NCBI RefSeq assembly: GCF_009938015.1
Contig: NZ_AP021884.1
Coordinates: 1,289,501-1,353,500, forward strand
Direction: 5' to 3'
Length of the DNA stretch: 64,000 nt
Origin: Sulfuriferula plumbiphila
Lineage (GTDB): Bacteria; Pseudomonadota; Gammaproteobacteria; Burkholderiales; Sulfuriferulaceae
Notes under the pieces: generated by a model
Told to the model about the DNA's origin: nothing
Databases searched by the model: none
What the model saw: the letters and a program-made list of their open reading frames with translations, nothing else
Position numbers and translations under genes: made by a program
Part shown: in pieces, positions 3,401 through 28,552 of the stretch
Layout of the letters: each line of letters begins with the position of its first letter
Numbering within the stretch: position 1 is the stretch's first letter

Positions 3401-4231
3401 ACTGCCAGAATCAGCGCCGATCGCGCCATGATCGCGCTGCCGCGCGATGATGCGCCGACCCTGAGCTCGGACGTGATCGTGCTGGGACGGCAAAAACCGC
3501 AGCCCAGCAAGCGTCTGCCCACGGCGCTCGACTTCGACCTGGATTTTGACATGGGCGACCAGTTTTACCTGACAGGACGCGGTGTGGATGCGCGTCTGAC
3601 CGGCCTGGTCAAGCTGCACGCCCGTGATGGTGGCCTGCCTACCGCTATCGGCAGCGTGCAGGTCGCCAAAGGCACATACAGCGCCTATGGCCAGCGCCTG
3701 GACATTGAACGCGGCGTGGTGAATTTTTCCGGGCCGGTGGATAACCCCGGACTGAATATTCTTGCCCTGCGCAAAAATCAGACCGTTGCGGCGGGCGTGG
3801 CGATTACCGGCAGTGCGCTGGCACCCGTGGTCAAGCTGGTGTCCGTCCCGGATGTGCCGGACACCGAAAAGCTGTCGTGGCTGGTGCTGGGGCACGGCAC
3901 GGAAAACAGTAGCGCCGCTGAGTTCAGCGTGCTGCAGACGGCGGCTGGCGTACTGTTGGGGATGGGTGATTCGGTCAGTCTGCAAGCCAGGCTGGCCGAG
4001 GCAACCGGCTTGAGCGAGGTGAATCTGAGCGGGGGCGGCTCGCTGAAAAACAGCATCCTGGTGCTGGGAAAACGGCTATCGAAAAACGTTTATCTGAGCT
4101 ATGAACAAGGGCTGGCAGGCACCACCAGCCTGGTCAAGATCAACTACACCCTATCCAGGCGCGTGTCAGTGCGTGCGCAGACCGGCAGCCAGAGTGCAGT
4201 GGATGTATTTTATACTTTCAGCTTCCGCTGA
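479..4231 (+). CDS. tamB: TamB, inner-membrane-anchored translocation/assembly module protein
   Basis: A 1250-residue AsmA/TamB-type protein. An N-terminal transmembrane anchor (about residues 12-33, after an RARR stretch) is followed by a very long region of repetitive beta-strands, expected to form a hydrophobic-groove beta-taco spanning the periplasm, and by the conserved C-terminal DUF490/TamB domain (roughly the last 330 residues), which ends in alternating strands and VFYTFSFR. The family links inner and outer membranes and is implicated in autotransporter assembly and phospholipid transport. It overlaps tamA by one base, so the two are translationally coupled. Length is normal for the family (about 1250-1300 aa). 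Confidence 0.93.
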   Translation: MRARRLALRWAGGLVLWLGLLLALIAGLVWLAGREPTLHIGVQIATRLAGGQLSFEGVSGSLYGPLKFTRVRLDTPERRIEARDVVLDWSPRALLYDHQLLIRQLTLASLDITLIKPGPEPLRLPATLRLAYGLAIPDARIERLTLHQGRRSWPLSQVRLALTNPGDAYHARLSVQSPWGAGQASARLAPDAPFAINGTLDFARNDGLHDYTAHTALSGTLEHLGVQGAGSSGAASGRWQARLTPFQPVPLQQADVSVRQLDLRRLGAGLPQTDMDAGLTLQARTAATFTGGLSLANRLPGALDAGRIPVRSAHTRFSGNLDQLALQALALDLGDAGQFKGEGGLQHGLLAVKLSTANLNLHGLYNPLRPTRLAGKLALGAEQGAQTLLAELTQAGYRIAFNARRAGEQLIINNAQLAAGGGEFSFNARLALAGNHAFSARGQLRRFDPSRFGGYPAASINATAAAQGQFGPQISASVALNVAHSRYRGQPLSGKGTFKLAAKRVRDSDIALRLGANRLEVNGAFGAVNDRLDWRLAAPDMAAFGQGFGGRMTARGSFGGSLAQPSATLKLEGQALVWQGTRHLDSVSAAGQLQHGLNGVLNLSARLRGYRSADFALASAALDVHGTRTAHTINLAARNPQIDARATLSGGWRNGRGWNGRILRLENSGRYPVALNAPALLAFGAGHVSLSHAEFALARGRVRVDEFALQSGRITGQGSMSGLDSAYLLRLANINPDVESTLIVGGKWQFAAASQVNGSIQLWRERGDVTVPSEPRTALGIQRLALTLQAVDSRIHAELDAQGNKLGAVSAHAATTLAQRNGKWGLAGNAPLRIAAQVNMPALAWVSPLLGMPVTLDGAVQAQISASGTVNAPLLSGAVSADKLRFTYPGQGIAFTDGSLRASLHGDTLTLDSLRLRAGSGSLSGTGTALLRDGKPAMQIALLADKLALLQRPDRQLTVSGHADVSLAPRLIRVTARISADRAMIALPRDDAPTLSSDVIVLGRQKPQPSKRLPTALDFDLDFDMGDQFYLTGRGVDARLTGLVKLHARDGGLPTAIGSVQVAKGTYSAYGQRLDIERGVVNFSGPVDNPGLNILALRKNQTVAAGVAITGSALAPVVKLVSVPDVPDTEKLSWLVLGHGTENSSAAEFSVLQTAAGVLLGMGDSVSLQARLAEATGLSEVNLSGGGSLKNSILVLGKRLSKNVYLSYEQGLAGTTSLVKINYTLSRRVSVRAQTGSQSAVDVFYTFSFR

Positions 4232-4261
4232 TTCGACCTGGAAAAAGTGATTAACCATCGA

Positions 4262-4375
4262 TTAACCATGGGGCGCACGGAGAAAACCATGAAAGCAAAA
4301 TCCAGGACACTTCCCTGGGCTTGATTTTTGCCTTCTTGTTTTCCCCGTGTTCTCCGTGCGCTCTGTGGTGAATGC
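4262..4375. repeat. Palindromic CACGGAG-type intergenic repeat, copy 1
   Basis: Between tamB and nadC (convergent). Left arm GCGCACGGAGAA (4273-4284) pairs perfectly with TTCTCCGTGCGC (4350-4361), and the flanks keep further partial complementarity (ACCATG/TGGTGAAT). The same vocabulary (CACGGAG, CTCCGTG, a pyrimidine-rich TTTTCCCCGT and a trailing TAATGC/GCTTTTTCC) recurs at 5338-5402 and 51676-51796. It may fold as a transcript end for both convergent genes, but there is no clean T-run. Confidence 0.7.
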
Positions 4376-4387
4376 CGTTTTTTAGGA

Positions 4388-5254
4388 TCAAACAGCCCAC
4401 TCGAAGCGCATGGACAGATCCACTGCCTGAACGTGTTTGGTCAGGGCGCCCACCGAGATGCGCTGCACACCGGTTTCCGCTACGCTGCGGATGGTGTCGA
4501 GGCTGATATTGCCGGAGGCTTCCAGCACCGCCCGGCCAGCGGTGAGCCTGACTGCCTCGCGCAGCGCGTCGAGAGTAAAATTATCCAGCAGGATCAGGCG
4601 CGCGCCGGCATCCAGCGCCTGTTGCAGCTCGTCGATATTTTCCACTTCGATTTGCACCGGCACGCTGCCTGCCACCTGTGCAGCAGCGGCCAATACCCGG
4701 GTTATGCTGCCGGCCGCCGCGATATGGTTTTCCTTGATCAGAATGCCGTCATACAGCCCGCTGCGCTGATTTGCACCAGCGCCGGTCAATACCGCGTATT
4801 TTTGCGCCAGGCGCAGTCCGGGCAGTGTTTTACGCGTATCCATTACCATCGCGTTGGTGCCCGCAATTGCATCGACATAGCGCCGTGTGATGGTGGCGGT
4901 GGCAGACAATGTCTGTAAAAAGTTAAGCGCAGGGCGCTCGGCTGTCAGCAGCGCACGCGCATTGCCATGAATTTCACACAGCATCTGATCGACACCAATA
5001 CAGCTGCCATCGCGCGTGTACCAGTGGATTGCGACTGACGGATCGATCTGGTGAAAGCACGCTTCAAACCATGCCTGGCCGCACAAAATTGCTTTTTCCC
5101 GGCAGACTACCGCTGCACGTGCGGTGGCATGTGCAGGAATGAGACGGGCGGTGAGATCGCCGCTGCCGATATCCTCGGCAAGTGCAGCGGTGACATTGGC
5201 ATGGACAGCATCAGCCAGTTCGGCAGACAGGGAAACGGCGTGTGAGGAGGACAT
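4388..5254 (-). CDS. nadC: Nicotinate-nucleotide pyrophosphorylase (quinolinate phosphoribosyltransferase)
   Basis: A 288-residue enzyme converting quinolinate and PRPP to nicotinate mononucleotide in de novo NAD synthesis. Diagnostic segments are all present: EDIGSGDLT near the N-terminus, ERPALNFLQ, the substrate-binding MDTRKTLPGLR (about residues 140-150), ILIKENHI, EVENIDEL, LLDNF and LEASGNIS. Length matches the family (280-300 aa). It starts at ATG 5254 with a weak ribosome-binding site. It stands alone, convergent with tamB and flanked on both sides by palindromic repeats; no other NAD biosynthesis genes adjoin it, although nadK occurs far downstream. Confidence 0.96.
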   Translation of the reverse strand: MSSSHAVSLSAELADAVHANVTAALAEDIGSGDLTARLIPAHATARAAVVCREKAILCGQAWFEACFHQIDPSVAIHWYTRDGSCIGVDQMLCEIHGNARALLTAERPALNFLQTLSATATITRRYVDAIAGTNAMVMDTRKTLPGLRLAQKYAVLTGAGANQRSGLYDGILIKENHIAAAGSITRVLAAAAQVAGSVPVQIEVENIDELQQALDAGARLILLDNFTLDALREAVRLTAGRAVLEASGNISLDTIRSVAETGVQRISVGALTKHVQAVDLSMRFEWAV

Positions 5255-5337
5255 GGCGGCGCGCTTGAGTAAATTGGCAGGCAGGTATTTTGCGGGGTGA
5301 CGTGTTGGCGAGCAAATATAAACTTACAAAAGGCAAT

Positions 5338-5402
5338 GTTAGCCACGGCATGGTTTTCCCCGTATTCTCCGTGACCTCCGTGGCTAACTGCTTTTTCCAG
5401 GA
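5338..5402. repeat. Palindromic CACGGAG-type intergenic repeat, copy 2
   Basis: GTTAGCCACGG (5338-5348) pairs with CCGTGGCTAAC (5378-5388); between them is TTTTCCCCGTATTCTCCGTG, nearly the same as the right half of copy 1, and the trailing ACTGCTTTTTCCAG resembles the trailing sequence of the copy at 51.7 kb. This looks like a shortened member of the same family in the nadC upstream region. Confidence 0.65.
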
Positions 5403-5775: not shown

Positions 5776-8364
5776 ATGCGTTTTGACAAACTTACCACGC
5801 AGTTCCAGCAAGCGCTTTCCGATGCCCAGAGTATGGCGTTGGGGCAGGATAACCAGTTTATCGAGCCGCTGCATCTGCTGGCGGCATTGATCGACCAGAC
5901 CGAGGGCGGCACCACTTCGCTGCTGGCGCGCGCTGGCGGCAATGTGCGCGCGCTGCGTACCTCTTTGCAGGAGGCCATCGGGCGTCTGCCCAAGGTGGAA
6001 GGACACGGCGGCGAGGTGCAAATCTCGCGCGAGCTCAACAATTTGTTCAATCTCACTGACAGGGAAGCGCAAAAGCGCGGCGACCAGTTCATCGCCAGCG
6101 AGCTGTTCCTGCTGGCGGCCTGCGACGACAAGGGCGAAGTGGGACGGCTGCTCAAGCAGCATGGTGTCGCCCGTCCGGCGCTGAATGCGGCCATCAGCCA
6201 GGTGCGCGGCGGCGAGAACGTGGCGAGCGCAGATGCTGAAGGCCAGCGCGAGGCGCTCAACAAATACACGCTGGATCTCACCGAGCGCGCGCGCCTGGGC
6301 AAACTCGACCCGGTGATCGGCCGCGACGACGAGATTCGCCGTGCCATCCAGGTGTTGCAGCGTCGTACCAAGAACAACCCGGTGCTGATCGGCGAGCCGG
6401 GTGTGGGCAAGACCGCGATTGTCGAGGGCCTGGCGCAGCGCATTGTGAATGGCGAGGTGCCGGAGACGCTGAAAGGCAAGCGCGTACTGGTGCTGGATAT
6501 GGCCGGGCTGCTGGCCGGTGCCAAGTACCGGGGCGAGTTCGAGGAGCGGCTCAAGGCGGTATTGAAGGAGGTCGCCCAGGACGAGGGCCGCATCATCCTG
6601 TTTATCGACGAGCTTCATACCATGGTCGGCGCAGGCAAGGCGGAAGGCGCGATGGACGCGGGCAATATGCTCAAGCCGGCACTGGCGCGCGGCGAGCTGC
6701 ATTGTATCGGTGCGACGACGCTGGACGAGTACCGCAAATACATCGAGAAGGACGCTGCGCTGGAGCGGCGTTTCCAGAAGGTGCTGGTGGACGAGCCATC
6801 GGTCGAGGACACCATCGCCATTTTGCGGGGCCTGCAGGAAAAATACGAAGTGCACCATGGCGTCGAGATTACCGATCCGGCCATTGTCGCGGCGGCGGAG
6901 CTTTCCCACCGCTATATTACCGACCGCTTTCTGCCGGACAAGGCGATTGATCTGATTGATGAAGCCGCCTCGCGCGTCAAGATGGAGATCGATTCCAAGC
7001 CGGAAGTCATGGACAAGCTGGAGCGGCGCATGATCCAGCTCAAGATCGAGCGCGAAGCGGTGAAGCGGGAGAAGGACGAAGCCTCGCAGAAACGCCTGCA
7101 GCTGATCGAGGATGAGTTGCTGCGCCTGCAGCGCGAATACAACGATCTGGAGGAAATCTGGAAGGCGGAAAAAGCCATGGTGGCGGGTGCCCAGCACGTC
7201 AAGGAAGAGATCGAACATCTGCGTGCAGAGATGGCCGATCTGCAACGCCAGGGCAAGCTCGACAAGGTCGCGGAGATTCAATACGGCAAGCTGCCAAAGC
7301 TCGAAGCCCAGCTCAAACAGGCCGAGGCGGGTGAAGGTAAGCACGAATTCAAGCTTCTGCGCCGGGAAGTAGGCACCGAGGAAATCGCCGAGGTGGTGTC
7401 CCGCGCCACCGGCATTCCCGTTTCCAAGATGATGGAAGGAGAACGCGACAAGCTGTTGCATATGGAAGACGCGCTGCACCAGCGTGTGGTGGGGCAGGAC
7501 GAGGCGGTGCGCCTGGTGTCCGACGCCATCCGGCGTTCCCGATCCGGCTTGTCCGACCCCAACCGGCCCTACGGCTCGTTCCTGTTCCTCGGTCCCACCG
7601 GCGTGGGCAAGACCGAGCTGTGCAAGACACTGGCGGGTTTCCTGTTTGATTCGGAAGAACACCTGATCCGTATCGACATGAGCGAGTTCATGGAGAAGCA
7701 CTCGGTGGCGCGGCTGATCGGCGCGCCGCCGGGGTATGTCGGCTACGAGGAGGGCGGCACACTCACCGAAGCAGTGCGGCGCAAGCCCTACAGCGTGATC
7801 CTGCTGGACGAGGTGGAAAAAGCCCATCCGGACGTGTTCAACGTGTTGCTGCAAGTGCTGGACGACGGACGCCTGACCGACGGCCAGGGGCGCACGGTGG
7901 ACTTCAAGAATACCGTCATTGTGATGACCTCCAACCTCGGTTCGCAGATGATCCAGCAGATGGCGGGTGACGATTACCAGGTCATCAAGCTGGCGGTGAT
8001 GGGCGAGGTAAAAACCTATTTCCGCCCCGAGTTCATCAACCGCATTGACGAAGTGGTGGTATTCCACGCACTGGGCGAGGCGCATATCCTCTCCATCGCG
8101 CGTATCCAGGTGCAGTATCTGGCGAAGCGGCTGGCGGCCATGGGCATGGGCTTTGAGATCACCGATGCGGCACTGGCGGAATTGGCTGCGGTCGGTTTCG
8201 ACCCGATATTCGGCGCACGGCCTTTGAAACGGGCTATCCAGTCGCGGCTGGAAAATCCGCTGGCGAAGGAAATTCTGTCCGGACATTTTGCCGAGAAGGA
8301 TACCATCCGGGTGGATTTCCGCGATGGGGCAATGGTGTTCGAGAAGGGTGCAGCTACCCAATAA
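5776..8364 (+). CDS. clpB: ATP-dependent disaggregase ClpB
   Basis: An 862-residue Hsp100 chaperone that works with DnaK/DnaJ to extract polypeptides from aggregates. Order of domains: N-terminal Clp domain (1-145), first AAA+ module with Walker [10 protein letters not shown] near residue 206 and Walker B FIDELHTM, the coiled-coil middle domain (about 405-520, with the KREKDEAS and ERRMIQL stretches) that marks ClpB rather than ClpA/ClpC, second AAA+ module with Walker [10 protein letters not shown] near residue 605 and LLDEVEKAH, and the C-terminal Clp domain. Length is typical (857-865). The start is supported by AAGGATAACAAGCC before ATG. A heat-shock promoter sits just upstream. Confidence 0.98.
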
Positions 8365-8470
8365 GGAGTTGCGGGGATATCAATTAAGTACTTGCCGTGA
8401 AGTCTGCAATGGCAACAACACAGCGGTAACGGGTAACGTTGGACATTTTGACCGGCATGACGGAAACGGA

Positions 8471-8492
8471 ACAGGTCGATTACTCGACCTGT
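8471..8492. repeat. Short inverted repeat between clpB and the glycine-rich secreted gene
   Basis: ACAGGTCGA (8471-8479), loop TTAC, TCGACCTGT (8484-8492): a perfect 9-bp stem about 107 bases after clpB and about 84 bases past the end of the convergent gene. No T-run follows on either strand, so a terminator role is uncertain. Confidence 0.5.
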
Positions 8493-8575
8493 ATGCCTGA
8501 CTTCGTTTCGCCTAATCCAGCGCGATAGTTATATTATCGAGCGATGGTGGAGCCGAAACTCGGAGACGAAACCGA

Positions 8576-9391
8576 CTAGCGCTTGCTCATTCCCGCACCG
8601 GCACCCATTCCCGCACCGGCGCCCATTCCCGCACCGGCGCCCATGCCCGCACCGGCGCCCATGCCCGCACCGGCGCCCATGCCCGCACCGGCGCCCATGC
8701 CCGCACCGGCGCCCATGCCCGCACCGGCGCCCATGCCCGCACCGGCGCCCATGCCCGCACTGGCGCCCATGCCTGCACTGGCACCCATGCCTGCACTGGC
8801 ACCCATGCCTGCACTGGCACCCATGCCCGCACTGGCGCCCATGCCTGCACTGGCACCCATGCCTGCACTGGCACCCATGCCTGCACTGGCACCCATGCCT
8901 GCACCGCTACCCATGCGCACACCGCTGCGTTCGGTTGGTTTGTTCAGACTGATATCGCTTGCACTGCGGGCAGAAGCTTGGGTAGCAGGCATGCCTTGCT
9001 CGACCCGAGCCTGGAAAGTGTTGAGCACGTTCTGGGTCGCGGCAGCGGAATAGCCCGCGTCGATAGCCTGGTCGGCGGTCTTGGTCACTTGCTCGGCGGG
9101 AATGCCTTGGCGAACTTGGTTGCGTATCTCGTCACCCACCCGGCGCAGGTCGCTGGCGCTGTAGTCGTGCTCAACACCGCTACGGACAACCGCATAGGCC
9201 TGATCGACAGGTACACCGGCAGCCACCAGGTCGCTCAGCACCGCATGTGCGGTTTGTTGAGCATCTGCAGTCTTGGCCTGGACATGATCCAATTGAACCT
9301 GCGCTTCTTGCTCGGTGGCAGCTGCAGCGTTTCCGCTAAGGAACACGCTCAGCAAGGCGATTGCAAGTGTGGAGGGAATTTTTTTAACCAT
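8576..9391 (-). CDS. Secreted protein with helical domain and GAGAGM/GASAGM repeat tail
   Basis: A 271-residue protein starting at ATG 9391, chosen because AAGGAG lies 7 bases upstream; an in-frame upstream start lacks this. It has a signal peptide ending near GNAAAA, then about 130 residues of predicted helices with recurring AAGV..., YSA..., and QGMP/QGIP segments, then 18 perfect hexapeptides (one GSGAGM, eight GASAGM, nine GAGAGM) and a final SKR. The helical part resembles that of the secreted protein at 11487-12479. Methionine every sixth residue in a glycine/alanine tail suggests a flexible surface or metal-binding tail, but no function is known. Its promoter element (9478-9504) matches those of the ECF sigma operon and of 10153-10500. 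Confidence 0.82.
   Translation of the reverse strand: MVKKIPSTLAIALLSVFLSGNAAAATEQEAQVQLDHVQAKTADAQQTAHAVLSDLVAAGVPVDQAYAVVRSGVEHDYSASDLRRVGDEIRNQVRQGIPAEQVTKTADQAIDAGYSAAATQNVLNTFQARVEQGMPATQASARSASDISLNKPTERSGVRMGSGAGMGASAGMGASAGMGASAGMGASAGMGASAGMGASAGMGASAGMGASAGMGAGAGMGAGAGMGAGAGMGAGAGMGAGAGMGAGAGMGAGAGMGAGAGMGAGAGMSKR
8588..8911. repeat. 18-bp in-frame tandem repeat, 18 units
   Basis: Eighteen consecutive 18-bp units encode the hexapeptide tail of the secreted protein at 8576-9391. On the plus strand the units read CATGCCCGCACCGGCGCC or close variants. Two subtypes lie in blocks: nine GAGAGM units (GCACCGG) nearest the stop codon and eight GASAGM units (GCACTGG) before them, with one GSGAGM unit at the domain border. 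Near-identity at third positions implies recent slippage or recombination. Confidence 0.97.
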
Positions 9392-9477
9392 GATAAATGC
9401 TCCTTTGTGAGTTGATATTGATTCCACCCGGTTTGGCGGTGAACAGTGAGCCCCTTGTTGCCTCCTGTTGCTTCCTT

Positions 9478-9504
9478 AGACGAAAGCCCGCACACACTGG
9501 TTAC
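9478..9504 (-). promoter_or_regulatory. Putative ECF-sigma promoter GTAACC-N16-CGTCT (glycine-rich gene)
   Basis: On the minus strand: GTAACC (9504-9499), exactly 16 bases, CGTCT (9482-9478), followed by AAGG. It lies 87 bases upstream of the start at 9391. The same two blocks and spacing occur before the sigma operon and before 10153-10500. Confidence 0.72.
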
Positions 9505-10104
9505 AGTTCCCGAAAATTCGCCAGGTCGTGGAAAGCATGCTTCTGCGTGCGCCAATCATTCTGCCGGGTGCTTACCGGTTCGATATTTCGGTGGGTCCAG
9601 ATTTCGTCGGGCACTATTCAACCCGTTGCGCCCAGGCGTGTTTTCAGCCAGAAGTAGCGTCGCTGTCGGGAAGTGCTAACTGGATTGCATCACTTAGGAT
9701 GACGGTATCTTGCTGCGGCGCAAGCTCCCCGGTGAGGATCATCCTACGATGCGGGTGAACAAGCCTGTTTCTGCGATACCGAGTTTTTTGGCAAACCCCA
9801 AAGCGATGAGGTGGCCGACCGCTTCACCAGCATTTTGGAATTGTGTCTACCAAGGGGTATATGTCTTTCTGGGAGGCGCAAAATCGGGAGCTCCCTCACC
9901 GCCTCAAGCAGGCGGATCATCCTGGCCAGGGTCATGCCTTGGACGAGCGGCATTCCACGGAATGTGAGCTGCGCAATCCTCATTGAGACCAGCATCGGGA
10001 CTGGGCAGCGAGATTCTGTGATCACTTTTAATAGGCCGGTAAGGGGGAATATTACCTCAGACGATTTGCCGCCTTGAAAAGTTATCCAGATTGGGGCACT
10101 AAAA
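9505..10104. other. About 600 bases without a convincing gene
   Basis: Open frames exist on both strands (for example minus 9744-10025 and plus 9811-10077) but none has a good ribosome-binding site, signal or recognisable motif, and they overlap one another. The stretch near 10015-10075 (GTGATCAC palindrome, then a run of CCCCCTTACCGGCC on the minus strand) has the flavour of insertion-sequence end DNA. I suspect decayed mobile-element sequence but cannot name it. Confidence 0.4.
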
Positions 10105-10142
10105 ATAACCGAGCCCTTGCCGCATGCTCGGCAAGGGCTCGG
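10098..10142 (-). terminator. Intrinsic terminator after the 10153-10500 gene
   Basis: Perfect 14-bp stem CCGAGCCCTTGCCG / CGGCAAGGGCTCGG (10109-10142) with a 6-base loop, followed on the minus strand by TTATTTTTAG. It sits 11 bases past the stop codon of the minus-strand gene. Confidence 0.88.
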
Positions 10143-10152
10143 GAAGGAACGA

Positions 10153-10500
10153 TTACGGTGCTTTGTACGGATTGGTCAACATGGGTGCAGAACTAGAACT
10201 AGAACCATAACCCGGGCTTGTCGAAGGATTGGAGGAAAGCGGGCCGGACCCGGTGGTTTGCTGCTGACTGAAGCCCGCGCCAAAGGTCTGGCTGCCGGCT
10301 CCACTGCCACTGGTCTGCGCACTGAAGCCGTCGGCCATGCTGGTGGCGCTACCCGCGCCGCCACCGGCGCCCATGCCGGTGCCGCTGCCGAAGCCGACTA
10401 CCGGTGGGTGTTCAACCTGATCCGTCGTCTGATCCGCAACGGCGGCGCCGGCGAAAAGAACGGCGCAGACTGCTGCCGATACTACGAGTTTGATATTCAT
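10153..10500 (-). CDS. Small secreted Gly/Ser-rich protein
   Basis: A 115-residue protein with a classical signal peptide (MNIKLVVSAAVCAVLFAG..AVA) and a low-complexity mature part rich in Gly, Ser, Ala, Thr and Gln, including GTGMGAGGGAG, which echoes the GAGAGM tail of the protein at 8576-9391. No cysteine in the mature part, no lipobox, no catalytic motif. Start supported by AAAGGAG 7 bases before ATG. It has its own ECF-type promoter element (10564-10590) and a strong terminator, so it is a monocistronic satellite of the sigma operon. Probably a surface or matrix component; function unknown. Confidence 0.8.
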   Translation of the reverse strand: MNIKLVVSAAVCAVLFAGAAVADQTTDQVEHPPVVGFGSGTGMGAGGGAGSATSMADGFSAQTSGSGAGSQTFGAGFSQQQTTGSGPLSSNPSTSPGYGSSSSSAPMLTNPYKAP

Positions 10501-10563
10501 TTCAATCTCCTTTCATTGGGTTAAGCCTCGATTGCAAGAGGCATGTGAGTTTCTGTAATTCTG

Positions 10564-10590
10564 AGACGAGGTAAACGGGGTTTTGGTTAC
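10564..10590 (-). promoter_or_regulatory. Putative ECF-sigma promoter GTAACC-N16-CGTCT (small secreted gene)
   Basis: Minus strand: GTAACC (10590-10585), 16 bases, CGTCT (10568-10564), then CAGAATT. It starts 64 bases before the ATG at 10500 and lies just past the end of the barrel gene, so the small gene can be transcribed separately from the operon. Confidence 0.75.
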
Positions 10591-10598
10591 TGAGTCAG

Positions 10599-11381
10599 TC
10601 AATAACTATAATTCACGCCTATTGACACGATATTGTCAGTATAGGCTGTGCCCGCGATGTTGGATTTATTGTCCTGATAGGCATAGCCGCCGTTCAAATA
10701 CCAGTTTTTCGCGATCCGTTGCGTCACGTCGGTGTACAGCGTTTGTGCAGTGGTATTGAAAGGCGAGGTGGTTTTGAAATCGCGCGTGGCGTGGCTGTAG
10801 CCAAGGTTGACGAACGTATCCTGGAGCGGCAGGTAGCCCAGATTCACGCCGTAAGTTTCACCAGTATAGCTGTAGGCACCGAGATTGGCTTTGCTATCCT
10901 CATAGTCCACGACCCCCTTGATCCAGACGGTCTGGCTCAATTGGCTCTTGATTTCAAGGGTTCCGCCGAAGCCGTTGGAATCGCGCTCGTTCTGCTTGGC
11001 GTCGCGGGTAAAACCGCGCGCCGTGGCCAGACCCGACCAGGTGGGTGAAAGCTGCTGGTAGAGTCCCGCGCTCGTCACCAGCATGGTGTTGTCGAGGTTA
11101 TTGAATTTGTTATAGGTGGAAGAGAGTGCACCGATCTGGCCGATGAAATAGCGGGTTTGCGCAGCGTCGAGAGGCGTGTAGTACACCGCAGAAGCGCTTA
11201 GCGTCCCGTAGTTATCGCTGTGCTGATTCGCTTTTGTCGGCGAATCGGGCGAGCCGTTAACGTTGGATTCATAGGACAGCTTGGCACCCGCATTGACGGT
11301 GAAGTCGGCTTGAGCCGGACCGGCCAGCCCCCCAGCTAAAACTGCAGCGCTGACCATAGCGGGAAGGGGATTGAATCGCAT
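10599..11381 (-). CDS. Outer-membrane beta-barrel protein
   Basis: A 260-residue protein with a signal peptide (cleavage near AQA-DF) and a mature sequence of alternating amphipathic strands: LSYESNVNG, YGTLSASAVYYT, TVWIKGVVDYED, GVNLGYLPL, NWYLNGGYAYQD, and a C-terminal VSIGVNYSY ending in an aromatic residue, as expected for insertion by the Bam complex. About 10-12 strands can be counted. It resembles the outer-membrane beta-barrels often found beside secreted or exported polymer systems, but I cannot assign a named family. AAAGGACATACTG precedes the ATG. It lies 105 bases after the GGGFP-repeat gene and is probably the last gene of the sigma operon, unless the weak hairpin between them ends transcription. 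Confidence 0.82.
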   Translation of the reverse strand: MRFNPLPAMVSAAVLAGGLAGPAQADFTVNAGAKLSYESNVNGSPDSPTKANQHSDNYGTLSASAVYYTPLDAAQTRYFIGQIGALSSTYNKFNNLDNTMLVTSAGLYQQLSPTWSGLATARGFTRDAKQNERDSNGFGGTLEIKSQLSQTVWIKGVVDYEDSKANLGAYSYTGETYGVNLGYLPLQDTFVNLGYSHATRDFKTTSPFNTTAQTLYTDVTQRIAKNWYLNGGYAYQDNKSNIAGTAYTDNIVSIGVNYSY

Positions 11382-11433
11382 CAGTATGTCCTTTCTTTGA
11401 GTGATGGAACGTAAAAAAACAAGATAACTTTTC

Positions 11434-11471
11434 CCAAAATAGCAACGGCAACCTGCTTGCCGCTGCCGTCA
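11434..11471 (-). terminator. Weak hairpin between GGGFP-repeat gene and barrel gene
   Basis: AGCAACGGCAA (11441-11451) pairs with TTGCCGCTGC (11457-11466) with one mismatch; ATTTTGGGAAAAG follows on the minus strand. It could be a leaky terminator or processing site inside the operon. Confidence 0.4.
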
Positions 11472-11486
11472 TTCGTTAGCCGCGTT

Positions 11487-12479
11487 TCAGTAACCGCCCC
11501 CCCCTTTGGGGAAGCCACCGCCCGGCACGCCGCCCGGGAAGCCGCCACCCGGGAAGCCGCCGCCCGGGAAGCCGCCGCCCGGGAAGCCGCCACCTGGCGC
11601 GCCGCCCGGGAAGCCGCCACCCGGGAAGCCGCCGCCCGGGAAGCCGCCACCCGGCCAAGATCCGCCGGGAGTCTGGCCCGGGGTGGCGAACGGTGGCCTC
11701 CCGTCTGCTTCGGGACTGAACTGACGACGCATGCGCGCGACGACATCGACGGGAGCGATGCCCTGGCGCAGTTGGTCCAGCACATTTTTCTGCAAGGTTA
11801 GAATCTGCGCGGGCGTGTCGCCCGCTCTCAGGCTGGCCCTGGGCAGTTCCAACGCTTGCGTTGGCGTAGCGTCGTGAAGGAGCAGCAGTTCAGCAAGATT
11901 GCCAGCAGCAATCAGGCTCCCGGCGCTGGACGCCATGCGGCCGCCTTGTGTGCCGGATTGCGCCAGCGTGGAGAGCGCTTCCTTTGCGCCGTAGCGCTGC
12001 CGCAGACCGGCACCCAGGTTGATCAGCGTGTCGCGTTCCTCGGTATTGCCGTACTTGAGGCCGCGTTCTTCCATTGCCTGAACACGCGAACGGGCATCCT
12101 GCAGAGCCTCCTGCCACTTGGATGCCACTGCCAGGATGGTTTCACTCGGCACTTTCTTTGCCATGCCTTCCAGTAGCTTGTCGCGCACCAGCGCGACAGG
12201 CAGGCCATCCCGGCGCACGGCGGCGAGCTTCTGGACGAACGCCGCGGCCTGGACTGCGGAATATTTATGCATAGCGGCCAGGCGCATCACCGCTCGCAAG
12301 TCTTGTTCTTCCACGCCGGCTGCCAGGGCGCTTTCCAGATTGGTGGTCAGGGATTGGCGCTGGGCCGGCGTGAGGGCAAGCTGTACCGTGGCTTGCCCAA
12401 GCGATGGAGGGAGCTCGGCGTGTGCGGCCGCTGCCAGCATCAACCCGGTCAACATGATGAGAATGCGAGAGTGGGTCAT
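11487..12479 (-). CDS. Secreted helical protein with GGGFP-repeat C-terminus
   Basis: A 330-residue protein with a signal peptide (cleavage near AHA-EL), about 230 residues of predicted helices, and a C-terminal tail with eight GGGFP units broken by GGAP and GGVP, ending GGGGY. The helical part shows recurring pieces such as ALAAGV...AVMRLA..HKYSA, RRDGLP.. and LRQGIAP.DVV, which align by eye with the AAGV, YSA and QGIP pieces of the secreted protein at 8576-9391; I infer a shared domain. It follows the anti-sigma-like gene after 11 bases and is clearly part of that operon. Probably an exported structural or substrate-binding protein; no enzyme motif seen. Confidence 0.8.
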   Translation of the reverse strand: MTHSRILIMLTGLMLAAAAHAELPPSLGQATVQLALTPAQRQSLTTNLESALAAGVEEQDLRAVMRLAAMHKYSAVQAAAFVQKLAAVRRDGLPVALVRDKLLEGMAKKVPSETILAVASKWQEALQDARSRVQAMEERGLKYGNTEERDTLINLGAGLRQRYGAKEALSTLAQSGTQGGRMASSAGSLIAAGNLAELLLLHDATPTQALELPRASLRAGDTPAQILTLQKNVLDQLRQGIAPVDVVARMRRQFSPEADGRPPFATPGQTPGGSWPGGGFPGGGFPGGGFPGGAPGGGFPGGGFPGGGFPGGGFPGGVPGGGFPKGGGGY

Positions 12480-12490
12480 GGTGTCGTGTC

Positions 12491-13162
12491 CTATATGATG
12501 GTGACGACCGCGTTTTGCCTGCCGAAATCGTCCTTCACATGCTGTTCGGCGTGCGGATCGGTCACCCAGCGCTGGCCGTTGACCAGGAACGCATACTGGT
12601 AGCGACCGGCGGGCAGGGGGACGGTCACGCTCCAGATGCCGTTGCCGGAAGGCACCAGTTTGACTTGTGCCATACTGCCCCAGCCATTGAAATCGCCGAT
12701 CAATGCCACGCTATGAGCTTGGGGTGAGTACAGGCTGAACCGCAGCGCGTTGCTGCTTGGGCCGGGTGTATGCGAAACCAGGGTCAGGGGGGAAGATGCT
12801 TGGCGCGGACCGCCGACCGAGGGCGCCAGCGATAGAGGGGCAAGCGCAATAAACAGCACTGAGGCTGCCAACGCGGCTCCGGAGAGTTCCCAGCCGAGCA
12901 AGGGGTGACGTTCCAGCCACTGGCGCAGGCGCGTGAAGGCGCTTTGCCTTTTGGGCTTAACCGCCGCCATCACACCGCGCGCCAGACTGGCAGGAGCGGG
13001 AATTCGCGGCAAGTGTTCCAGCGCTGCCAGCGCCATGCGGGTGGCGAGCAACTCCGAGCGCTCGGTCTCGCTCAATCGAGCGAGTAAAGCGGCTTCTTCG
13101 GATGGGTTCATTTCCTGATCCAGATAACGCTGCCGGGCTTCGTCGAATAGCGATGCTTTCAT
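12491..13162 (-). CDS. Membrane anti-sigma-like protein with carbohydrate-binding-like (AMPK/isoamylase E-set) domain
   Basis: A 223-residue single-pass protein. Residues 1-90 are cytoplasmic and helical (DEARQRYLDQEMNPSEEAAL, then LATRMALAALEHLPRIPAP), resembling anti-sigma domains but without the HxxxCxxC zinc motif. One transmembrane segment (about 93-113, LSGAALAASVLFIALAPLSL) follows. The periplasmic part (about 137-223) is an E-set/CBM48-like domain: FSLYSPQAHSVALIGDFNGW, WSVTVPLPAGRYQYAFLVNG and a DP/DDFG ending, as in the glycogen-binding domain of AMPK beta. It overlaps the sigma gene by 4 bases (ATGA). I infer that it holds the sigma factor and senses a glycan or envelope ligand. 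Confidence 0.83.
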   Translation of the reverse strand: MKASLFDEARQRYLDQEMNPSEEAALLARLSETERSELLATRMALAALEHLPRIPAPASLARGVMAAVKPKRQSAFTRLRQWLERHPLLGWELSGAALAASVLFIALAPLSLAPSVGGPRQASSPLTLVSHTPGPSSNALRFSLYSPQAHSVALIGDFNGWGSMAQVKLVPSGNGIWSVTVPLPAGRYQYAFLVNGQRWVTDPHAEQHVKDDFGRQNAVVTII

Positions 13163-13722
13163 GACAATCCTCCGTACAGTTGCTTGAACATCTGGCGCGC
13201 GCGGAACGTTCTCACCTTCACGTTTTGTACCGTGTCGTCGAGCATCAAGGCGATCTCATCGTTGCTATGCTCTTCCAGATGTTTCAATATCAAAACTTCC
13301 CTGTAATGTGAGGGCATGCGGTTGAGGATCACTTGGATATGATCATGCAATTGCCCTTGCTCCACTTGATGGTCGGGCTGTGTAGCGTCTGTCGCAGCCA
13401 GAGTGTCGACGTGGTCCGCCAGATCATCGCACAACGTATCGGCACTGTTGCTGCGCAACATATCGCGCGCCTTATTGAGCGCAATCTGGCACAGCCAGGT
13501 GGAAAACGCGCTCCTGCTGCCAAACATCTCGAGCTTCTGGTAGGCGGTGATGAAGGTTTCCTGGCTGATGTCCTGGCTGGCCTCATAATTGCCGAGAAAC
13601 CGATACAGCACGTTGAACACCTTGTGTTGGTGACGCCAGACCAGGGTTTCATACACTGCTGACCGCCCCGCCAGACAGGCATCGATCAGCGCCTTGTCCG
13701 GCAGATCACTCCATTCCTCCAC
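13159..13722 (-). CDS. ECF-family RNA polymerase sigma factor
   Basis: A 187-residue group 4 sigma factor. Region 2 is at about residues 22-90 (FLGNYEASQDISQETFITAY, then FSTWLCQIALNKARDMLR, the expected -10 contact helix) and region 4 at about 130-185 (LNRMPSHYREVLILKHLEEHSNDEIA, then VKVRTFRARQMF, the -35 recognition helix). There is no C-terminal extension. Start GTG 13722 has GAAAGG 6 bases upstream. It is followed by the overlapping anti-sigma-like gene. Directly upstream lies the GTAACC-N16-CGTCT element, found also before two satellite genes, which suggests positive autoregulation. Region content is certain; the exact ECF group is not assigned. Confidence 0.94.
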   Translation of the reverse strand: MEEWSDLPDKALIDACLAGRSAVYETLVWRHQHKVFNVLYRFLGNYEASQDISQETFITAYQKLEMFGSRSAFSTWLCQIALNKARDMLRSNSADTLCDDLADHVDTLAATDATQPDHQVEQGQLHDHIQVILNRMPSHYREVLILKHLEEHSNDEIALMLDDTVQNVKVRTFRARQMFKQLYGGLS

Positions 13723-13752
13723 GCACGGCCTTTCGTAATATAGTTCCCGTTG

Positions 13753-13779
13753 AGACGGGAAAGGCGCCCGAAAGGTTAC
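13753..13779 (-). promoter_or_regulatory. Putative autoregulated ECF promoter of the sigma operon, with overlapping palindrome
   Basis: Minus strand: GTAACC (13779-13774), 16 bases, CGTCT (13757-13753), then CAA. It lies 31 bases before the GTG start. The perfect palindrome TTCCCGT-TGAG-ACGGGAA (13744-13761) overlaps the CGTCT block and the expected transcription start, so a second regulator could bind here. Confidence 0.75.
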
Positions 13780-13802
13780 GCTCCGTTGAAGTCGGATGGG
13801 GT

Positions 13803-14171
13803 TTATGGCAGGACGAGGACGTTGTTTTCGCCGAAAAATCCATCCTGGACAACAGGCTGCCCGGGATCAATCCTCCGCTGCGCGCCGTCCACCCAGTAAA
13901 CGTATTCGATACGGGTCAGGGTGGTCGGAAGAGGCAGTTTGGCGCGCCACATGCCCTTTTCGTCGGGGCCGACCAACAGCGTCACCCCGCTTTGCCACTG
14001 ATTGAAATCACCGATGACCTCGACAGATTTCGCCTGAGGCGCGTACAGGCTGAATGTGGCTTCATGCCTGTCTGCTGCAGCATAAGCCCAGGGTAGGGCC
14101 AGTGTAAGAGCCAAAGCCAAGCGCAATCGCCGGTTGATCGGCAGTAATAGCAGTAATAGAGTGTCGCTCAT
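13803..14171 (-). CDS. Secreted single-domain E-set/CBM48-like protein
   Basis: About 122 residues from ATG 14171, preferred over ATG 14177 because AAGGGG then has proper spacing. A signal peptide (LALALTLALPWAYA-A) is followed by one E-set domain: FSLYAPQAKSVEVIGDFNQW, then MWRAKLPLP, IEYVYWVDG, DPGQP and ENNVLVLP. It aligns by eye with the periplasmic domain of the anti-sigma-like protein over its whole length. I infer a duplicated free form that could deliver, compete for or modify the same ligand. It lies upstream of the sigma gene, on the same strand; no copy of the GTAACC...CGTCT element was seen before it, only an isolated CGTCT. Confidence 0.78.
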   Translation of the reverse strand: MSDTLLLLLLPINRRLRLALALTLALPWAYAAADRHEATFSLYAPQAKSVEVIGDFNQWQSGVTLLVGPDEKGMWRAKLPLPTTLTRIEYVYWVDGAQRRIDPGQPVVQDGFFGENNVLVLP

Positions 14172-14392
14172 AGACATCCCCTTCGCATCCTGTCGGAATG
14201 TCGCGGATTATTTATATTGAGTGAAGCGCGAATCCGCAGTGGCGGCAAATTTCGTGGACTCTCTCATTTTGAGGGCATGGCTTCAAGACGTTTTAAAAAA
14301 ATCAGCCCAAAGTTGTAATGCTCCCTACTGTAATGTGTTCTGCCCCCCAACTATCAGTGCTCGCTGCGGTTTCTAAATAGCTGCTATGGCGG

Positions 14393-14950
14393 TTAGCGAC
14401 GGCGGGCGCGGTAGCGGACGATGAGCCAGACTGTCGCGCCCATCACGGCCAGCACGGCCAACACCAGAAATTCCAGTTTTTGGATGCTGCCCATTAGCCA
14501 TTGCAGCGCATCGCCAAACGCATAGCCCGCGCTGATTATCAACGCCGCCCACAGCACTGAACCCAGGCTGTTCCATAGCGTGAACTGCAACGGGCTCACT
14601 GCGCTCATTCCCACCATCATGGGCCCGACGATACGTAGCCCATAGGTAAAACGCAACACCACAATCACCGGTGCATGGTGGCGCGCAATCAGGCTTTCCA
14701 CTTTGGCGGCGCGTGCTGACAGGGACGGAAAGCGCGTCAGAAGCATATTGCCGTGGCGGCGTCCCATATAGTAGAAAAACTGGTCGCCGATAATCGCCCC
14801 GGCGACCGCAACCGGCATCAATACCGGCAGATGCAGATAGCCCTGATTCGCGGCAATCGCGGCCATGACGAGGATCGTTTCACCTTCCAGCAAGGTACCG
14901 AACAATACGGCGTAATAGCCGTATTCGTGGATAAGCTTGGCGTAATCCAT
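14393..14950 (-). CDS. DedA-family inner-membrane protein
   Basis: A 185-residue integral membrane protein of the DedA/SNARE-associated (VTT) family, which acts in lipid carrier recycling and envelope homeostasis. Start ATG 14950 overlaps the stop of the upstream gene (ATGA); the longer frame beyond it is a shadow. Family marks are the amphipathic re-entrant segment GTLLEGETILVMAA, AVAGAIIGDQFFYYMGRRHG, and RFTYGLRIVGPMMVGMS with the conserved arginines, followed by three more hydrophobic segments and an arginine-rich end (RYRARRR). Likely cotranscribed with the DUF1345 gene. Confidence 0.9.
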   Translation of the reverse strand: MDYAKLIHEYGYYAVLFGTLLEGETILVMAAIAANQGYLHLPVLMPVAVAGAIIGDQFFYYMGRRHGNMLLTRFPSLSARAAKVESLIARHHAPVIVVLRFTYGLRIVGPMMVGMSAVSPLQFTLWNSLGSVLWAALIISAGYAFGDALQWLMGSIQKLEFLVLAVLAVMGATVWLIVRYRARRR

Positions 14951-26992: not shown

Positions 26993-28273
26993 TCAACGTA
27001 TCTGGTGTGGGTTTTGGCCGAGCATGCCGGGCGTAATCAGGGTAATGCCGTTTTCGGTCACATAAAAACGCCGTTCGTCCTCCTTGCGGTCCACCCCCAC
27101 CACCAGGCGCTCGGGTATCTTGCAGTCCTTGTCGATCACGCAGCGGCGCAGGCAGGCATGTCGGCCAATGTCGACGTTGGGCAGCACCACGGCGTCTTCC
27201 ACCGTGGCGAAACTGTGGACCTGGACATTGGAAAACAACACCGAGCGGCGCACCGTGGCGCCGCTGATAAGACAGCCACCCGATACCATACTTTCGAGCG
27301 CCACGCCACGCCGCTCTTCATCATCGAACACGAATTTGGCGGGGGGAAGCTGTTCCTGGTGGGTCCAGATCGGCCATTGCCTGTCGTACAGATTGAGTTC
27401 CGGCGTGATGTTGGCCAGATCCAGATTGGCCGCCCAATAGGCATCCACCGTACCCACATCGCGCCAGTAGGGCTCGCTGCCCGGCAGGCTGCCGATGCAA
27501 CTGTCCTTGAAGCTGTGCGCGTAGACGCGGTAGCGATCGATCAGGTGCGGAATGATGTTTTTGCCGAAATCGTGTTCGGAAGCGGGATCATCCGCGTCGC
27601 GAATCAGCTGTTCGTAGAGGAAGCGGGCGTTGAACACATACACGCCCATGGACACCAGCACGCGCTCCGGGTTGCCGGGCAGGGTGCTGGGGTTATCCGG
27701 CTTTTCGGCAAAACCCACCACGCGCTCATCGGCGTCCACGGTCATCACGCCAAACGCGCGCGCGTCTTCAATCGGCACCTCGATACACGCCACCGTCATG
27801 TCGGCCTCGTGGCGCACGTGGCATGCCAGCATTTCGCCGTAGTCCATTTTGTAGATGTGATCGCCCGCCAGTATCAGCACATAATCGGGTTCGTAATTAC
27901 GCACAATATCCATGTTCTGGAACACCGCATCTGCGGTACCCTTGTACCAGTCCAGCTCGGAAACGCGCTGCTGCGCAGGCAACAGTTCAATGAACTCGTT
28001 GAACTCGCCGCGCAAGAACCCCCAGCCGCGCTGGATATGCTTGATCATCGAGTGCGCCTTGTACTGCGTCAGCACGCCCACGCGACGGATACCGGAATTG
28101 AGGCAATTGGAGAGCGGAAAATCGATGATGCGGAACTTGCCGCCAAACGGCACGGCGGGCTTGGCGCGCCAGTCAGTTAATTGTTTGAGTCGGGAACCGC
28201 GGCCACCGGCAAGAATCAGCGCGACGGTATTCTTGGTGAGGAGGCTGACGAAGCGCGGCAAATATTTTTGCAC
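26993..28273 (-). CDS. glgC: Glucose-1-phosphate adenylyltransferase
   Basis: A 426-residue ADP-glucose pyrophosphorylase, the committed step of bacterial glycogen synthesis. Start GTG 28273 chosen for the AAGGAG 6 bases upstream; the longer frame runs into promoter sequence. Signatures: nucleotide-binding [32 protein letters not shown] (allosteric and substrate lysine), [43 protein letters not shown], and the C-terminal beta-helix. Other glg genes are not in the window. The IS91 remnant lies immediately after its stop codon. Confidence 0.96.
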
Positions 28274-28552
28274 GGCAGGCTCCTTTTTTTTGGTGGTATA
28301 GTTAATTTCAATATAGCGTAGCAAACCGAGCGAGTGCGAATCATCGACCGATTTTTCTCCAGCATTGAGATGAAAATCCGAGCAGCTTTTCCGTTAGATT
28401 TTTTACGAAGATGAGGTTTTTCGATTCGTCCATCAGGCCGCGAATACGGCTGGGATGAATTTTGTGTATGCCGACTGACGGACTGTTATTGGCACATCTG
28501 AGCCATTCACTCACAAAACTCGATGATGAAGCTTATTTTGATATTCGCCTGA

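Follow-up and report, generated by a model that had tools for sequence, protein, structure and literature searches.

We report that an operon encoding an extracytoplasmic function (ECF) sigma factor in Sulfuriferula plumbiphila very probably forms an autoregulated switch with a local regulon. The operon lies within a stretch of 64,000 nucleotides, referred to as the window, whose coordinates are used unless a locus is named (NCBI RefSeq assembly GCF_009938015.1, contig NZ_AP021884.1, positions 1,289,501 to 1,353,500 of the forward strand). The conclusion was drawn from comparison of sequences, because sites of one promoter pattern recur before the same genes in five loci: 15 of the 35 upstream regions (one of them partly unreadable) contained a site, and 5,000 nine-letter permutations of the pattern reached at most 4. 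In the initial annotation, the ECF sigma factor was proposed to control its own operon and satellite promoters close by, located 5' of genes for exported proteins; this recurrence supports the proposal. The promoters and the seven genes are listed in their order on the minus strand; the four other loci mentioned are L027, L028, L030, and L033.

13803..14177, minus strand: CBMsec, an exported 124-aa protein with a single CBM48 domain (Pfam CBM_48 1e-9), a paralogue of the anti-sigma outer domain
13753..13779, minus strand: P1, predicted ECF promoter of the sigma operon; exact GTAACC-N16-CGTCT, with a similar site 5' of the ECF gene in all four other loci
13159..13722, minus strand: 187-aa ECF sigma factor with a GTG start (Pfam Sigma70_r2 6e-17, Sigma70_r4_2 9e-12)
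12491..13162, minus strand: predicted anti-sigma factor, 223 aa, with a helical N-terminal part, one membrane segment (about 91-113), and an outer CBM48/AMPK-type domain (138-222)
11487..12479, minus strand: P3gly, an exported protein with a signal-like N-terminus, an all-helical domain (about 25-251), and a GGFPG-rich tail
10599..11381, minus strand: OMB, a probable small outer-membrane beta-barrel of 260 aa, distantly like DUF2860, BBP2_2, and EpsL
10564..10590, minus strand: P2, predicted ECF promoter 5' of the small secreted gene; exact match, with equivalents in L027 and L028 and one with N15 in L030
10153..10500, minus strand: small exported glycine/serine-rich protein, 115 aa, with a hydrophobic N-terminus and a conserved GFGSG.G.G.GG
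9478..9504, minus strand: P3, predicted ECF promoter 5' of GlyRich; exact match, with equivalents in all four other loci (N15 in L030)
8576..9391, minus strand: GlyRich, an exported protein with an N domain and a tail encoded by an 18-bp (GMGA[SG]A) tandem repeat

Three minus-strand sites with identical blocks separated by exactly 16 bases and followed by AA or CA had been described in the initial annotation, which judged their clustering very unlikely to arise by chance; the description proved exact. GTAACC-N16-CGTCT was present without mismatch at 9504-9478, 10590-10564, and 13779-13753, followed by AA, CA, and CA, respectively. The end of CGTC was 87, 64, and 31 nt from the start codons of the genes beginning at 9391, 10500, and 13722. 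With independent bases of the window's composition, 0.001 sites would be expected in 5.2 kb of one strand and 1.6 in the genome. The 3.45-Mb genome contained four exact matches, and none to the pattern read backwards; frequent occurrence at random positions was thus not seen. Because this total is unremarkable relative to the 1.6 expected, the clustering of three sites in 5.2 kb is what stands out. The fourth exact match (C1:1463124, + strand) lies within an open frame of the opposite strand and was rejected as an additional target because of that antisense position. A search of 8300-14500 for sigma-70-like promoters found none, compared with 2.6 expected in shuffled sequences.

The sigma protein matched Pfam r2 at residues 28-93 and r4_2 at 129-177, with no further sigma domain above cut-off, and was 57-83% identical to the sigma proteins of the four other loci. 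Its scores were below the NCBIfam equivalog cut-offs for both RpoE (101.4 against 236.15 bits) and SigW (121.7 against 209 bits). The gene at 12491-13162 has a 4-base overlap with the sigma gene, and its product is predicted to be a single-pass membrane anti-sigma factor with an outer CBM48 domain. It contains a single hydrophobic 19-mer, starting at residue 95, and the outer domain matched Pfam CBM_48 (1.5e-12) and AMPK1_CBM (9e-11). The CBM48 scores of the anti-sigma and CBMsec were 48.1 and 38.9 bits, both above the gathering cut-off of 22.4, and the match between CBMsec and the anti-sigma profile had an E value of 6.5e-23. The anti-sigma gene follows the sigma gene in all five loci, although the loci were selected by their anti-sigma, and the CBMsec gene is directly 5' of the sigma gene in all four other loci as well. 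No motif was found 5' of CBMsec in the window.

The four other loci were chosen by similarity of the anti-sigma protein and not by the motif. L027 and L028 are from metagenome-assembled genomes, one of them labelled Thiobacillus; L030 is from G011, a genome of the window's genus, and L033 (G571:C29) is from a genome of another family of the class. A third anti-sigma match, L029, was dropped (43% over 42 residues, with the CBM48 part unmatched). All seven genes were present in each of the four loci, GlyRich being cut by the contig end in L028 and placed before CBMsec in G011. Judged by eye from translations, the flanking genes are not the same in the window, L027, L030, and L033; L028 does not extend far enough for this comparison. 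In L033, a UvrD-like gene, CBMsec, sigma, and anti-sigma occur twice in tandem, 4231 bases apart and with equal BLAST scores, and a P3gly fragment follows one copy; this is either a recent partial duplication or an assembly artefact, and the second copy was not counted separately.

Conservation was scored as GTAAC-N16..18-CGTC within 150 nt of a gene start. In the four other loci such a site preceded the ECF gene in 4/4, GlyRich in 4/4, the small gene in 3/4, and OMB in 1/4, and none was found in the 12 regions before the anti-sigma, P3gly, and CBMsec genes. Sites were therefore found, as the initial annotation had anticipated, before the same genes in independent loci that carry the sigma factor. 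For the L033 sigma gene, the over-long start showed no site, and a later start puts the site 17 nt upstream. In two of the G011 sites the blocks are one base closer together, and the GTAACx-to-CGTC distance in the GTAAC/CGTC sites of these loci is 15-16 nt. Block identity follows from how the sites were defined; spacer identity was 41% among the five ECF sites and 35% among four GlyRich sites, the L030 GlyRich site (N15) being excluded.

Several results weigh against a regulon of this kind. A counterpart of P2 was not found 5' of the small gene in L033, and only L027 among the four other loci has a site before the barrel gene. Residues 17-137 of the anti-sigma gave a weak match to an NCBIfam anti-sigma model (25 bits, cut-off 100). 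The pattern was also not enriched genome-wide: a search for GTAAC-N17-CGTCT, which misses locus sites with other spacing or with CGTCC or CGTCA, gave 22 sites in the five module-bearing genomes, compared with 41 for reversed controls. Thirteen of the 22 were in the locus; eight of the other nine overlap an open frame of at least 100 codons, L035 overlapping none, and no distant regulon members were accepted. Because enrichment was absent and most of the non-locus sites lie over open frames, the regulon looks local. That the three sites are chance similarities without promoter function is very improbable: the pattern is short, a coding-like frame contains one of its four exact matches in the genome, and genome totals are near expectation, but the sites are conserved 5' of the same genes while their spacers have diverged, and this and the permutation test speak against a chance origin. 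It is also unlikely that another ECF sigma factor of the cell recognizes the three sites, with the local ECF gene no more than a target of that factor. The GTAACC and CGTCT blocks are of a general ECF type, and a first look at the genome gave 15 candidates for the sigma query, as this explanation would have it; against it, sites and cluster occur together, since the 16 genomes of the genus that lack the operon, not all of them complete (the lowest at 64%), contained 6 exact motif matches in all compared with 43 for reversed controls. The promoter itself is of ordinary ECF type and not new. The initial annotation did not describe the sensor side, which is the most unusual part of the system.

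The outer CBM48 domain makes a glycan of the periplasm or envelope the first candidate for the signal, and, given the autoregulated local regulon, we are about evenly balanced on whether a glycan is in fact sensed. W100, K126, W133, L146, and T148 are five AMPK beta residues reported to contact sugar (PMC2642990). The window anti-sigma keeps both contact tryptophans, as W161 and W199, and all five anti-sigmas have the FN-W Trp and the last Asn of the CBM48 domain. On the other side, the K126 equivalent is Ala and the T148 equivalent is lost in all five, W199 is missing from the L030 anti-sigma, and the second Trp is absent from CBMsec; sugar binding may thus be lost. Nor does any of the seven genes resemble an enzyme of glycan synthesis or breakdown. 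Elsewhere in the window, about 13 kb from the CBM48 genes, the frame at 26993-28324 (minus strand) looks by eye like a glucose-1-phosphate adenylyltransferase (glycogen synthesis). The same regulon could respond to a different signal if CBM48 no longer bound sugar and instead recognized CBMsec or the exported products through protein-protein contacts; as a feedback or assembly checkpoint, it would then sense envelope or export state. We regard this as a credible contender, though one short of an even chance. The missing K126 and T148 equivalents and the missing second Trp in CBMsec would be explained by it, and the CBM48 pair sits with exported proteins in the loci seen, but it sits poorly with the invariant Trp and Asn and with the score of the anti-sigma CBM48 domain, which exceeds the Pfam cut-off.

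The autoregulated local regulon that we favor would operate as a self-amplifying switch, as follows. At rest, to judge from the families involved, the single-pass anti-sigma would hold the sigma factor at the inner membrane. The outer CBM48 domain would read the signal, and the secreted CBM48 protein may serve as co-sensor or decoy. The signal would free the sigma factor, stepwise proteolysis, as with other membrane anti-sigma factors, being the likeliest route. The freed sigma would then recognize GTAACC-N16-CGTCT before the two satellite genes and before its own operon, which comprises sigma, anti-sigma, P3gly, and barrel. The exported products (P3gly, GlyRich, the small glycine-rich protein, and the probable barrel) might then remodel the cell surface or matrix; we guess at this role because of their composition and export signals and the presence of the probable barrel.

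The AlphaFold model of P3gly has twelve helices between residues 25 and 251, with a block predicted local distance difference test (pLDDT) score of 77-97 from 21 to 250. The N domains of P3gly and GlyRich are related (profile probability 93, E 3e-7), and both are followed by glycine-rich tails. The GlyRich tail is encoded by 18.7 copies of the 18-bp repeat, coding GMGA[SG]A, at 8588-8924. The tails in L027 and L030 are built of other repeat units, so this part of the protein seems to be fast-evolving. In L030, another glycine-rich protein with a signal-like N-terminus (4175-4633, minus strand) adjoins the G011 locus without a sigma motif. OMB is classed as a probable small outer-membrane beta-barrel on the basis of weak family matches: DUF2860 at 23.9 bits (cut-off 22.9), BBP2_2 at 17.4 (cut-off 23.7), and TIGR03014, the XrtB-associated outer-membrane protein EpsL, at 34.6, below its cut-off of 275. 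The L030 orthologue had no Pfam match.

Three further features lie between the small gene and P3:

10109..10142, minus strand: strong intrinsic-terminator-like hairpin 3' of the small gene, with a 14-pair stem, a T-rich tail, and a folding z of -4.9
10059..10085, minus strand: fourth, imperfect promoter-like site, ATAACT-N16-CGTCT, with 2 mismatches and a counterpart at L028 4930-4956
9736..9998, minus strand: apparent gene remnant, with the imperfect sigma site in front; the corresponding 134-aa gene is open in L028 at 4987-5391

The terminator scan overall gave 6 sites compared with 6.1 in shuffled sequences, the z of -4.9 belonging to this hairpin itself; its position suggests that the small gene is a transcription unit of its own. 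The remnant gave two overlapping matches to the L028 gene in different frames, with E values of 5.8e-11 (54% identity) and 4e-4 (with internal stops). L028 has its additional site before the open 134-aa gene, the product of which had no Pfam match above cut-off and no PHROGs match. A fourth target of the regulon is thus apparently present in the window as a remnant, and we read the joint decay of target gene and promoter as the behavior expected of a real regulon.

The module is rare. Its distribution was examined in overlapping draws of genomes, all of which hold the window's genome (G000) except that from the order of G571. The full-length anti-sigma was found in 2 of 18 genomes of the family (all of one genus, the window's own included; three of the genomes lacking it are less than 80% complete), in 2 of 399 of the order (G000 and G011), in 2 of 369 of the class (G000 and G571), in 1 of 398 of the phylum (the window's own, three others matching the CBM48 part only), and in 1 of 8 of the order of G571. 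P3gly was found in 2 of 229 genomes, the barrel in 1 of 200, and the sigma factor, at E up to 1e-32, in 1 of 200, the window's own. Genus matches outside G000 and G011 were not counted, being mainly to the CBM48 part and mostly in branching-enzyme-like frames of 586-751 aa (16 of 18 genomes match at E 1e-3). The CBM48 proteins of the three phylum-draw genomes and a Vibrio plasmid match were likewise not taken as the same system; of the three loci, the one that was read, L052, has no ECF gene in 3.2 kb. This rarity, together with the differing flanks, suggests that the module moves between lineages. It is possible, if doubtful, that the whole is a movable, self-contained surface-building module, in which an ECF switch with an AMPK-type CBM48 glycan sensor on the outer side of its anti-sigma, paired with a secreted CBM48 partner, drives a new family of exported proteins with helical domains and glycine-rich tails, which leave through or assemble on the dedicated small barrel.

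Clostridium thermocellum, which has SigI/RsgI systems, lacks an outer membrane. SigW- and RpoE-like ECF systems have a single-pass anti-sigma, the gene order sigma then anti-sigma, and promoters with AAC and CGTC cores. The system described here is like these in sigma domain make-up, in promoter cores, and in the order of the sigma and predicted anti-sigma genes, and differs in its outer domain and targets. As is predicted here, SigI/RsgI of Clostridium thermocellum has a membrane anti-sigma with a cytosolic sigma-binding part and an outer carbohydrate-binding module, and an autoregulated sigma operon with exported targets (PMC4711584). The same source describes SigI promoters as CNNAAA and CGAA with 13-14 nt spacing, whereas the sites here are GTAAC and CGTC and not of the SigI type; RsgI outer modules as other carbohydrate-binding modules or PA14, whereas here the domain is CBM48; and the targets as cellulosome genes, whereas the predicted targets here are glycine-rich proteins and a probable barrel. 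By analogy, we infer a switch for envelope or glycan signals that would follow the SigI/RsgI principle with unrelated parts. An ECF sigma factor is also linked to an outer carbohydrate-binding domain in Streptomyces coelicolor (ECF52 SCO4117), but there the sigma factor itself carries the domain, rather than a separate predicted anti-sigma (PMC8999054). The CBM48 domains of AMPK beta and of glycogen-branching enzymes belong to the same family by profile, with both key tryptophans present in the window anti-sigma; those domains are found on a kinase or enzyme, whereas the predicted location of CBM48 here is beyond the inner membrane, as part of a regulator and as a free exported protein.

Literature searches, the results of one of which were only partly inspected, found no report of a CBM48 anti-sigma, and a search on the promoter letters found no paper. 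According to a survey, most numbered ECF groups, 102 of 157, have no studied member (PMC8103513). Because the promoter, the regulon, and a candidate sensor domain all lie within 6 kb in this case, signal, sensor, and output are amenable to testing as one system. If the interpretation is correct, carbohydrate sensing by anti-sigma factors, known from SigI/RsgI, would through this AMPK-type CBM48 domain also reach ECF factors of bacteria with an outer membrane.

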